Shown piece after piece: positions 216 through 3,408 of a stretch of 27,978 nucleotides of DNA (positions within the stretch are counted from its first letter, which is position 1; each line of letters starts with the position of its first letter). The notes under the pieces are model-generated. The model was not told where the DNA came from and ran no database searches. It saw nothing but the letters and a program-made list of their open reading frames with translations. The translations under genes and the position numbers were made by a program. The stretch is from a virus. The DNA lies in the IMG/VR virus record IMGVR_UViG_3300022745_000127, positions 1 through 27,978 of that record; one strand, written 5' to 3'.

Positions 216-682
216 GAAAACGCACCGTCCGCCGGGTCTATCAACTGGTTGACCCGATAGCCCATGCAAAATACCAGGCGTCATTACTGACAGACGCGGA
301 AAAGGTCACGCAGATGACCCCGATACAGGTCGCAGTCGATAGGTTATCCCGAGGAGACTGGAACCTGCACGAGTGCTGGCAACCGCTGTTTGAGTGCTTG
401 AACCGGATTGAAAGCCTGATGAAGCTCAACCGGGTGATGGACGCTGAGTGGCTCAAGGGATGCCAAGATATGTTCGTTGGATGCCTGGAGCGCAAGACCA
501 CGGCATTTCGTGCGGAGGAGCTGGCAAAGATCAGGGAGATAACGGCGATCTATTGGGACTTGCTCGGGGAGGTGACGCATAGGCAGTTTCAACTTGCTTG
601 TGAACATACGAATGCGAATGTCCAGAGAATCCAGCATCAAAAAAAAGGATTAAAAAGGGTTGCGGGCTGTGTGATTGAGTGA
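212..682 (+). CDS. Conserved phage protein of unknown function (156 aa)
   Basis: ATG at 212 overlaps the preceding stop by ATGA. The product begins with a basic stretch (MRKRTVRRVYQLVDPIAHA) and is predicted mostly helical. It resembles a widespread small-protein family of proteobacterial phages that starts MRKR...YxLVNPIxHAI and sits just before the terminase or at the end of the replication region; no function is established for that family. The C-terminal ~25 residues are polar and basic (HQKKGLKRVAG). The -35 element of the following promoter lies inside its last codons, and the -10 element begins just after the TGA at 680-682. Probably the last gene of a rightward early operon. Confidence 0.75.
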   Translation: MRKRTVRRVYQLVDPIAHAKYQASLLTDAEKVTQMTPIQVAVDRLSRGDWNLHECWQPLFECLNRIESLMKLNRVMDAEWLKGCQDMFVGCLERKTTAFRAEELAKIREITAIYWDLLGEVTHRQFQLACEHTNANVQRIQHQKKGLKRVAGCVIE

Positions 683-689
683 ATATAAT
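660..689 (+). promoter_or_regulatory. Sigma70-type promoter for the structured RNA unit
   Basis: A perfect TATAAT is at 684-689 and TTGCGG at 660-665, with an 18-bp spacer. TTG of the -35 consensus is kept and the last three bases are poor. The start point expected about 7 nt downstream is near 696, exactly where the structured segment begins. No open reading frame with a ribosome binding site follows, which fits a promoter for a non-coding RNA or a leader. Confidence 0.55.
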
Positions 690-695
690 GGTGCC

Positions 696-803
696 GTCTA
701 TGTTCACGGCATCAAGACAAACAGAGGCCTCTAGCTTCTGCTTTTGCCCTTTAGTGGGGAATGTGCCGTGAACACATAAAAGCAGAGACTAGAGGTCTTT
801 TTG
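696..803 (+). ncRNA. Candidate phage structured small RNA
   Basis: The unit lies between a TATAAT promoter and a T-tract terminator and holds no plausible ORF. Two inverted repeats interleave. An 11-bp perfect one pairs 701-711 with 764-774. An 18-bp one pairs 728-745 with 778-795, with one C/A mismatch and one G-U pair, and can extend outward to 723 and 800. Because they interleave they either form a pseudoknot or are mutually exclusive, as in an attenuator. Only 3 nt (775-777) separate the two 3' arms, which makes simultaneous full pairing tight. A short TGCCGT at 692-697 can also pair with 705-711 if transcription starts upstream. I do not recognise a named RNA family. It could be a trans-acting sRNA, an attenuated leader for terS, or a packaging-site element. 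Confidence 0.5.
723..802 (+). terminator. Intrinsic terminator with long loop
   Basis: The stem 728-745/778-795 is nearly perfect and extends through 723-727/796-800 with two G-U pairs. The T run at 798-802 follows at once. The loop (746-777) is unusually long for a terminator and carries the 3' arm of the upstream repeat. It would end both the small RNA and read-through from the early genes at 1-682. Confidence 0.5.
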
Positions 804-957
804 CTTTCTGATCGCGTGCGGTACGTCGGTGGCGCAAATCAGGATACCCCGTTACACGAGCAAGCCAAAGCGGGGGAGGTGGGACAAGAGTAGAGCCTGG
901 TGGTTGAAATAAGTCTGCTCATCGCGATGTGACGACATGGCTCCGGAGAGCATCGTT

Positions 958-1000
958 AAAGCGGGTCGATTGCTGTTTTGTTACGGTTAGGACTCGCTTT
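958..1000 (+). other. Stem-loop upstream of terS
   Basis: AAAGCGGGTC at 958-967 pairs with GACTCGCTTT at 991-1000, ten pairs with one G-U, around a 23-nt loop. No T-tract follows, so it is not a standard terminator. It may be part of the terS leader or of a terminase recognition site. Confidence 0.35.
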
Positions 1001-1050
1001 GCTCAAACATTCACCAGAGAGCATATATATTCTTCTTAATACATAATAGG

Positions 1051-1443: not shown

Positions 1444-1670
1444 GCCCAGTTGACCCAGCTAAGATAGATCAAGGGCGTGTGTCACTTTATCGGGCCCTGA
1501 TGAAGGTCAAGAAACACTACGGCCTAAACCCCATGGAGCTGGTCTATGCGCACCATGAGGCGCTAAAGGACATTGGGGACTATTCCGACAGGCTGTGGTT
1601 GCAGTTTGTCGCCGAGTCTTTTAAAGAGGTGATGTTGCGTGACGAATCCCAAGTCCTGGTCGCCCACTGA
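1440..1670 (+). CDS. Small protein of unknown function between terS and terL
   Basis: A 76-residue, probably helical protein (QGRVSLYRALMKVKKHYG, then HHEALKDIGDYSDRLW). Its ATG overlaps the terS stop by ATGA and its 3' end overlaps the terL start by 32 nt, so all three are probably translated as a coupled unit. No catalytic motif or membrane segment is visible. Position suggests a packaging accessory or an assembly factor. I do not recognise the family. Confidence 0.65.
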   Translation: MSPVDPAKIDQGRVSLYRALMKVKKHYGLNPMELVYAHHEALKDIGDYSDRLWLQFVAESFKEVMLRDESQVLVAH

Positions 1671-3408
1671 AAAGCAGGAATACTTCCTGGCTGCCGTTGA
1701 GGATGAGGTGCTATTTGGCGGCGCGGCAGGGGGTGGGAAAGCCCTTGACCTTGCCACACCAATAGCCACTCCAGACGGCTGGCGCACTATGGCTGATTTA
1801 CAGCCTGGTGATGATGTGTTTGACGAGCATGGCCAACCTTGTAAGGTGCTGGCTATCTCTGAGATCATGTACGACCGCCCATGCTACGAGCTGACGTTTA
1901 GCGATGGGTCTCAGATCGTCGCTGATGCTGAACACCTTTGGGTCACTCTCGAAGGCAACATTCAACACGTTCGCACAACGCAGCAGCTTAGCAACGCGCT
2001 GATATGGGGTGAGGCGCTTACCTTGCCAAACTCCCCTGGCTTAGAAACCTTGCGCGGCGTGGTGGGTGACGTAACCATCACAGCGGTAGTGCGGTGCGAA
2101 TCCCGCCCGGTGAAGTGCATTAAAGTCTCGTCGAAGTCTCATCTTTACCTGGCAGGCACCACATATCTGCCCACGCACAACAGTGACGCCCTAATCATGG
2201 ACGTCCTTGGCCTCGGCGAAGAAGAACCATCCATCTCAATCCCCCGGTTTCGCGGCTTGCTTATTCGTAAGACCTTTCCCCAGCTTCGGGAAATCATTGA
2301 CAGAACCCGAATCATCTATCCCCTGATTGACCCAGGGGCGACCTATCGGGAGGCTGACAAGGAATGGCTCTTTACGTCGGGCGCGAAAATCATCTTTGGT
2401 TTCTGCGAACGAGATCCTGACGTACTTCAATACCAGGGCGCTGAATTTCAGTGGATAGGCATCGATGAGCTTGGCCACTTCGCAACCCCGTACGTTTACG
2501 ACTACCTAACCTCCCGCCTGCGCTCACCTGACAAACGGCTATCCGCAAAGATGCGAGCGTCATGCAACCCAGGCCCGAAATGGATAATGGAGAAGTTCGG
2601 GATTAAAAAAGACGGTGCCGATAGCATGGTCACGCTCAACGTCAACGGGCGATTCATTCACCGCCGCTTCATAAGCTCCAAGCTGTCAGACAATAACCAC
2701 CTTGACGGCACTGGCTACCTGGAACGGCTGATGATGCTGCCTGATGTTGAGAGACAGCAACTGTTAGAAGGCCGATGGGACGTATACAACGTGCCGGGTG
2801 CTATCTATAAAGACCAGATTGACGAATCACGCTCCAATGGCCGCATACGACCTTTGCCATACGACCCGATGTTGCGTGTTCATGCAATTTGGGACCTCGG
2901 CTGGAATGATAAAACGTCGATCATCCTGGTTCAAAAAGGTGCGAGTGACGTTCGCATCATTGATTACATCGAAGAATCTCATAAGACCCTGGACTACTAT
3001 TCCACTCTGTTAAGAGAGCGGAAATGGAACTGGGGTGAAATGTGGCTACCTCACGACGGCGAAACCCGCAACCTACAGACAGGGCGATCAGCAAAAGAGG
3101 TGCTTGATTCTCAGGGGTGGAATGTTAGAATCACGCCCAAGCTGGACATTGAAAGCGGCATAAGAGCGGCTCGAATGATGTTTGGACAGGTATATTTTGA
3201 CGCTGACAAGGCTGACGTGCTGGTTGACCACTTGTACAACTATCGCCGGGCCATCAACGCGCAAACAGGGGAGGCAACAGCCCCGGTGCATGATAATCAT
3301 TCCCACGCTGCTGACGCATTTAGATATCTCGGAGTCTGCGTGGGCAGTCTTACCAATTCAGAGTGGAGCAAAGGAACTCTGAATTACGCCAACATGAATT
3401 ACGCCTAA
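1639..3408 (+). CDS. terL: Terminase large subunit containing an intein
   Basis: The precursor is 589 residues; after removal of the 147-residue intein the mature protein is 442, a usual TerL length. The ATPase Walker A, GGAAGGGK followed by Ser, is split by the intein between Lys34 and Ser182. Walker B is FQWIGIDELGHF near residues 272-283. The C-terminal RNase H-like nuclease shows HAIWDLGWND (Asp419), MWLPHDGET, and DNHSHAADAF (Asp559). It drives ATP-dependent packaging through the portal and cuts the concatemer. The start is GTG at 1639, with AAAGAGGT at 1623-1630 as ribosome binding site; there is no in-frame ATG before Walker A. Splicing is required for activity because the ATP-binding loop is interrupted. 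Confidence 0.93.
   Translation: MTNPKSWSPTEKQEYFLAAVEDEVLFGGAAGGGKALDLATPIATPDGWRTMADLQPGDDVFDEHGQPCKVLAISEIMYDRPCYELTFSDGSQIVADAEHLWVTLEGNIQHVRTTQQLSNALIWGEALTLPNSPGLETLRGVVGDVTITAVVRCESRPVKCIKVSSKSHLYLAGTTYLPTHNSDALIMDVLGLGEEEPSISIPRFRGLLIRKTFPQLREIIDRTRIIYPLIDPGATYREADKEWLFTSGAKIIFGFCERDPDVLQYQGAEFQWIGIDELGHFATPYVYDYLTSRLRSPDKRLSAKMRASCNPGPKWIMEKFGIKKDGADSMVTLNVNGRFIHRRFISSKLSDNNHLDGTGYLERLMMLPDVERQQLLEGRWDVYNVPGAIYKDQIDESRSNGRIRPLPYDPMLRVHAIWDLGWNDKTSIILVQKGASDVRIIDYIEESHKTLDYYSTLLRERKWNWGEMWLPHDGETRNLQTGRSAKEVLDSQGWNVRITPKLDIESGIRAARMMFGQVYFDADKADVLVDHLYNYRRAINAQTGEATAPVHDNHSHAADAFRYLGVCVGSLTNSEWSKGTLNYANMNYA
1741..2181 (+). other. Mini-intein, class 3 type, in TerL Walker A loop
   Basis: Residues 35-181 of the TerL ORF form a Hint domain: block A ATPIATPDGWRTMADLQPGD, block B DGSQIVADAEHLW, block F RPVKCIKVSSKSHLYLAG, and C-terminal PTHN followed by Ser+1. 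The first intein residue is Ala, not the Cys or Ser of class 1. The triplet that defines class 3 is present in intein numbering: Trp67 two residues after the block B His65, Cys126 at the block F position 4, and Thr145 before His146-Asn147. In class 3 inteins the block F Cys is the first nucleophile. At 147 residues there is no room for a homing endonuclease, so it is probably immobile now. The boundaries are set by restoring GGGK-S. Confidence 0.9.

Follow-up and report, generated by a model that had tools for sequence, protein, structure and literature searches.

Tailed phages encode, as judged from comparative sequence analysis, a small structured RNA, here called RNA1, whose family is absent from Rfam 15. 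We came upon it in a stretch of viral DNA of 27,978 nucleotides (the window; IMG/VR record IMGVR_UViG_3300022745_000127) and found it in six sequence types, which vary in their letters and keep their fold. That RNA1 is a real RNA selected for its shape we consider near certain. We posit, with moderate confidence, that it is a standalone accessory (moron-like) RNA which has two folding states, is exchanged as a cassette, and acts in trans.

In the window, RNA1 would start at G696 and span ~108 nt of the plus strand (696-803). It is preceded by a putative sigma-70-type promoter (660-689, plus strand) with a weak -35 element, TTGCGG (660-665), an 18-nt spacer, and a perfect -10 hexamer, TATAAT (684-689), that lies 6 nt before the RNA1 5' end (background P 0.0004). 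The promoter is missing from our promoter scan because its -35 element matches the consensus at only 3 of 6 positions, and the terminator was missed by the terminator scan because its loop is too long. Two inverted repeats interleave: a/a' (701-711/764-774) is a perfect 11-bp repeat, and b/b' (728-745/778-795) contains a single mismatch, C735·A788. The initial annotation had named these promoter hexamers, both repeats, and TTTTT at 798-802, and all of them are present; the b/b' repeat, which it gave as 18 bp with one mismatch, is there but belongs to a longer stem, 723-745/778-800, of 22 pairs plus the mismatch.

Folded, the plus-strand RNA would begin with a 5' hairpin 1 (696-718), in which GUCU/AGAC and AUG/CAU enclose loop K1 (UUCACGG, 703-709). 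The 5' arm of the long stem (b, 723-745, carrying C735) and its 3' arm (b', 778-800, carrying A788) then enclose a three-way junction with two inner hairpins: hairpin i (747-759, CCC..GGG) and hairpin c (761-777, AUGUG/CACAU), which presents loop K2 (CCGUGAA, 766-772), the perfect complement of K1. The 11-bp repeat a/a' is this K1:K2 contact together with flanking stem letters. The T run at 798-802 and the conserved TTGCTTTC that follows it (798-808, plus strand) mark the putative end of both the transcript and the exchangeable unit. The minimum free energy (MFE) of 696-803 is -42.5 kcal/mol, whereas shuffled sequences average -26.1 (z -5.1; reached by 0 of 200 shuffles). Of 5000 shuffles of the intergenic region, 28 contained an 11-bp exact inverted repeat inside 120 nt, a count that does not require the second, interleaved repeat; among the loci collected at that stage, a scan found an equally strong repeat combination only in the window and its close kin. 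RNA1 contains no conserved ORF, and the window is devoid of tRNA genes. Just upstream, TGCCGT (element x, 692-697) copies the start of a' and could base-pair with the last letters of a; L040 shows this as well (GGGCT/AGCCC), the other types do not. We dropped element x as a family feature, since it is confined to these two types and most of it precedes the inferred start. Neither do we claim a pairing of TTGCTTTC with b', which is possible in several types and breaks in L146.

The six types are designated window, L040, L146, L150, L185, and G449, with L151 counted as a near copy of L150 rather than as a separate type. Besides the window and its kin, their sources are uncultivated phages unrelated to it and a single phage contig binned with a bacterial genome. 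Close kin of the same phage group were gathered by searches with TerS and the upstream ORF. Patterns built on features common to two alleles led to L146, L150, and L151, and a looser pattern to L185; most matches of the pattern scans were rejected because the outer stem was unpaired, as were two metagenome-assembled copies (L152 and L155) that fit the pattern and show no pairing outside it. A covariance model built from these members (R2) then matched contig C30 of G449 (E 1.2e-19 in a search of 399 genomes from the order of G083; a repeat sampling across that order drew mostly the same genomes). The contig carries NinB, HNH, TerL, and portal genes and is therefore phage DNA. A 23S signature, which we take to be typical of Betaproteobacteria, is present in G083 and absent from G449's own assembly; the host group, judged from the G083 signature, is probably Burkholderiales. 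A phylum-wide search of 398 genomes returned L246 (E 5e-4), near acyl-carrier-protein/ketosynthase-like genes; being short and, for that number of genomes, weak, we took it for a chance match. Distant blastn searches gave nothing credible for RNA1 in 50,697 phage records or for a copy of the window RNA1 in a plasmid collection, and ~70 portal relatives (35-39% identity, many of them fragments) had no RNA1 match. Pfam searches with six proteins, mostly RNA1 neighbours, gave no matches. That RNA1 belongs to no named family, as first supposed, holds for Rfam 15: searches with RNA1 of the window, L005, L146, L151, and L250 returned sub-threshold hits (mostly miRNA-type hairpins) or none, and at the standard cut-off the window as a whole has no Rfam match. 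A literature search, with subscription journals mostly outside its coverage, found no description of it.

The case for a selected shape rests on covariation. In all six types a 5' hairpin precedes a stem of 20-23 pairs that closes a three-way junction, from which two hairpins project, and U's come after the stem. Hairpin 1 is built of GUC..GAC enclosing either AUG..CAU or ACG..CGU in five types and of GCG..CGC in L146; hairpin i occurs in 6/6 types as CCC..GGG and variants, its stem letters varying, and hairpin c always carries K2. In the long stem, 7 of 21 paired positions are doubly compensated and no internal pair is broken, the sole non-pair being at the outer end of L185; the six types are a small set, in which the window and L040 have common flanks. 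The loops are more telling. K1 (6-7 nt) and K2 form 40 of 40 Watson-Crick pairs over six types whose loop letters differ: UUCACGG/CCGUGAA, CUAGCC/GGCUAG, CUCGCAA/UUGCGAG, GUUGCAU/AUGCAAC, CUGACA/UGUCAG, and CUCGCAC/GUGCGAG. When K1 and K2 loops are permuted among types, only the true assignment (1 of 720) reaches 40/40. The shape of RNA1 thus matters, because the letters vary freely while the hairpins and the loop contact are kept. Related phages, where base changes breaking both stems without compensation would have told against the structure, show the opposite, compensatory change across six types. On the plus strand, G·U alternates with G-C and A-U at stem positions, which argues for a plus-strand RNA over a DNA cruciform. 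Internally, A·C-type mismatches are limited to the invariant one, set in the motif UAG-C/A-CUA; in G449 the flank UAG/CUA becomes UGG/CCA and the C·A mismatch is kept. The invariant mismatch is a likely binding site.

Among close kin RNA1 is either frozen or replaced. It is identical (108/108) in L042, L041, and L004, whose upstream ORF DNA differs from that of the window by 10-11.5%; at that divergence ~11-12 changes would be expected in RNA1, and the probability of none is ~1e-6 to 1e-5 per pair. This suggests purifying selection in these three kin, and the identity could also reflect recent gene conversion. In L040/L005 the flanks are equally close, RNA1 differs so much that its last 23 nt are all that blastn can align, and the RNA folds alike (z -6.4, with compensatory changes in both repeats), as would be expected of an allele exchange within the same flanks. 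L150 (7965-8134) and L151 (5802-5972) have in common a block of 171 nt, 97.7% identical and bounded on both sides, that ends just after TTGCTTYC, beyond which their DNA is unlike. After the T run, members with unlike downstream DNA have the motif TTGCTTYC in common, and for this reason the RNA1 unit probably extends to ~808. We posit that phages exchange RNA1 as a cassette of ~120-170 bp.

Transcription of such a cassette would start within it and, in most types, stop at a U-run terminator that it also carries. A -10-like hexamer lies 6 nt upstream of RNA1 in the window, L040, and G449, 8 nt upstream in L146, and, weakly, 7 nt upstream in L185, with 5/6 matches in L040, L146, and G449, 4/6 in L185, and none in L150/L151. 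A run of 4-5 U's follows the stem in 5/6 types, the exception being L185 with UUUAUU. The types thus differ in how well they fit the promoter-to-terminator unit proposed in the initial annotation: the -10 element is clear in 4/6 types, weak in L185, and absent from L150/L151, and where the U run is clean it would make, with the stem, a putative terminator. The position upstream of terS, by contrast, is not a property of the family. RNA1 lies between an unassigned ORF and terS in the window, next to NinB and HNH and upstream of packaging genes in G449, after the portal gene in L151, after the portal and two further genes in L150, between primase and NinG in L146, and beside a transcriptional regulator gene in L185. 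Because the neighbouring genes differ from type to type, RNA1 is not a terS leader; a variable gene neighbourhood and cassette exchange are both what a moron-like RNA gene leads one to expect.

The folding of RNA1 appears to change as it is made. Without b', RNA1 of all six types folds differently, with a paired to a' over 9-13 bp and the 5' arm of b folded on itself; the b/b' fold becomes the MFE structure only once 13-20 nt of b' exist (6/6 types), and at full length b/b' is the more stable fold in five types and a/a' in G449, all by MFE folding, which ignores kinetics and pseudoknots. These computations support a two-state switch as a possibility and agree with the earlier suggestion that the first repeat folds first and then yields. 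We posit that during synthesis a would pair with a' (state A) and that, once most of b' has been made, RNA1 would refold to the long stem (state B). RNA polymerase hides roughly a dozen nucleotides, so RNA1 may still be in state A at the time the U run is synthesised. In state B the K1:K2 contact could persist alongside b/b' as a kissing pseudoknot, and the repeats are therefore not fully exclusive; of the two arrangements first envisaged, a pseudoknot or mutually exclusive repeats, the kissing contact fits and strict exclusivity does not, as the a/a' core can coexist with b/b'. Once released, state-B RNA1 would act in trans as a compact particle.

The same two states could serve a cis-acting attenuator, in which state A allows read-through, state B terminates, and a factor that shifts the balance sets the expression of the downstream module or gene. 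State A is the MFE structure until 13-20 nt of b' exist in every type, a noncoding module (module 2) follows every member in the same direction, and late genes follow RNA1 in the window and G449, all as an attenuator would have it. The arrangement in these two also resembles the lambda 6S/PR'-tR' leader, where a promoter, a short RNA, and a terminator lie upstream of late genes. An attenuator, however, normally travels with its gene, whereas the genes downstream of RNA1 are completely different among types, and the downstream modules differ too. Moreover, a lambda-type late leader sits between an antiterminator and the late genes, which is not so for L146, L150, L151, and L185; no Q-like gene was identified beside RNA1 in the window; and a conserved pseudoknot is, to our knowledge, not a feature of the lambda leader. 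We regard attenuation as unlikely, if still a serious contender, and favour action in trans because no downstream gene is conserved among members. A further and more doubtful proposal would build on the standalone RNA: both folds would be selected, and a private, varying loop code, swapped with the cassette, would avoid cross-pairing with the RNA of a co-infecting phage or evade a host factor able to recognise the particle.

RNA1 could also form the 5' part of a longer noncoding transcript that comprises RNA1 and module 2, the U run being a mere linker. In every member RNA1 is followed by a noncoding stretch of ~200-400 nt (partly visible in L150, where the contig ends), TTGCTTYC is conserved after the U run, and L185 lacks a clean U run. 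Module 2A, one of the kinds, is a second structured RNA that is not in Rfam (L250 1611-1866; L004 1158-1413; L150 8126-8290); it lies directly 3' of RNA1 in L004, L150, and G449 and has covariation of its own: between the two sequences compared, 12 of 60 pairs show double compensation and no pair is lost. Against a joint molecule, the kinds of module 2 are unrelated to one another, and model R3 of module 2A matched none of the others. The window type (809-1035, plus strand) adjoins RNA1 and is not part of it: it has no clear fold (z -1.0) and is 97-99% conserved in L042, L041, and L040, where the upstream ORF differs by 10%, and in L004 it is replaced by module 2A, so that L042 and L004 have identical RNA1 with different modules. 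In L146, module 2 contains the Rfam Betaproteobacteria-1 RNA (RF02932), shortly downstream of RNA1 yet separate from it; RNA1 precedes RF02932 in L146 only, and Acidovorax phage AP1 has the L146 module without RNA1. A joint RNA is therefore quite improbable, though with the attenuator it is one of the two chief rivals. In both phages (L146 3485-3362; Acidovorax phage AP1, L233, 4001-4223), the RF02932 region is located between the primase gene and the one after it. Within the window module there is a short imperfect palindrome at 913-936, and the kin contigs L002, L006, L007, and L048 begin in this noncoding stretch, with their ends at window positions 901-930, as if assembly broke there at a strain-variable junction.

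That the standalone RNA acts as a single molecule can be weighed against the known phage RNAs with kissing loops. Perfectly complementary, freely varying loop pairs are a hallmark of packaging RNA (pRNA) (PMC12670572), and ROOL and GOLLD are structured phage or prophage RNAs whose conserved kissing loops mediate assembly (PMC12286853). K1 and K2 have this character, and identical RNA1 molecules could chain head to tail, so that K1:K2 might join RNA1 into dimers or rings. However, stem c, the K1:K2 helix, hairpin 1, and the linker together come to about the length of the 20-23-pair stem in every type, so that the helix lengths fit a contact within one molecule, and these phages have ordinary terminase genes; an intermolecular contact strikes us as improbable. 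Like RNA1, phi29 pRNA (RF00044) is small, encoded by a phage, and built around a three-way junction, with covarying complementary loops, and it lies near packaging genes, as RNA1 does in the window and G449, other members being elsewhere. Yet RNA1 fails the pRNA covariance model; both pRNA loops lie inside the closing helix, whereas the K1 hairpin lies outside the b/b' stem; the loops pair over 2-4 nucleotides in pRNA and 6-7 in RNA1; and phi29 has a gp16-type packaging ATPase where RNA1 phages have TerS and TerL (window) or TerL (G449). ROOL and GOLLD, too, are phage structured RNAs of no known function with complementary loops, but they are several hundred nucleotides long, against ~108-120 nt, fold differently, and gave no covariance-model match. 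RNA1 is filed as a new family because it fails the tests that define pRNA, ROOL, and GOLLD. That it is instead an element acting as DNA (a signal for replication or packaging, a cruciform, or a site bound by protein) is highly improbable, for although inverted repeats lie near terS with the palindrome at 913-936 close by, a cruciform would poorly tolerate the G·U pairs of the stem, and the location is not conserved.

CBASS-activating phage RNA (cabRNA) of staphylococcal phages is, like window RNA1, a structured phage RNA of the terminase region; compared by description only, it differs in its length of ~400 nt and in lying within the terS/terL genes (PMC10686824). With two states and a private loop pairing, the predicted design of RNA1 would be unusual. 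Few phage noncoding RNAs are conserved across unrelated phages well enough for a covariation-tested structure, and many are single sightings. RNA1, beside ROOL, GOLLD, and pRNA, could thus serve to test whether structured RNAs are accessory genes that phages carry and trade and, its loop code being swappable, whether kissing loops act within or between molecules.

The genes that follow RNA1 in the window group have features of their own. The terL frame (window 1639-3408) contains an intein-like insert (1740-2185) that begins just after the Walker A motif GGAAGGGKA and ends in ..YLPTHN-S; PHROG terminase matches flank it on both sides, and Pfam gives the insert no name. Between module 2 and terS lies a hot spot for insertions, of which the window has none. 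L005 has there a gene for 421 amino acids without a known family (1733-2998), and L041 (4660-5272) has the start of that gene and, in addition, an HNH-like endonuclease.
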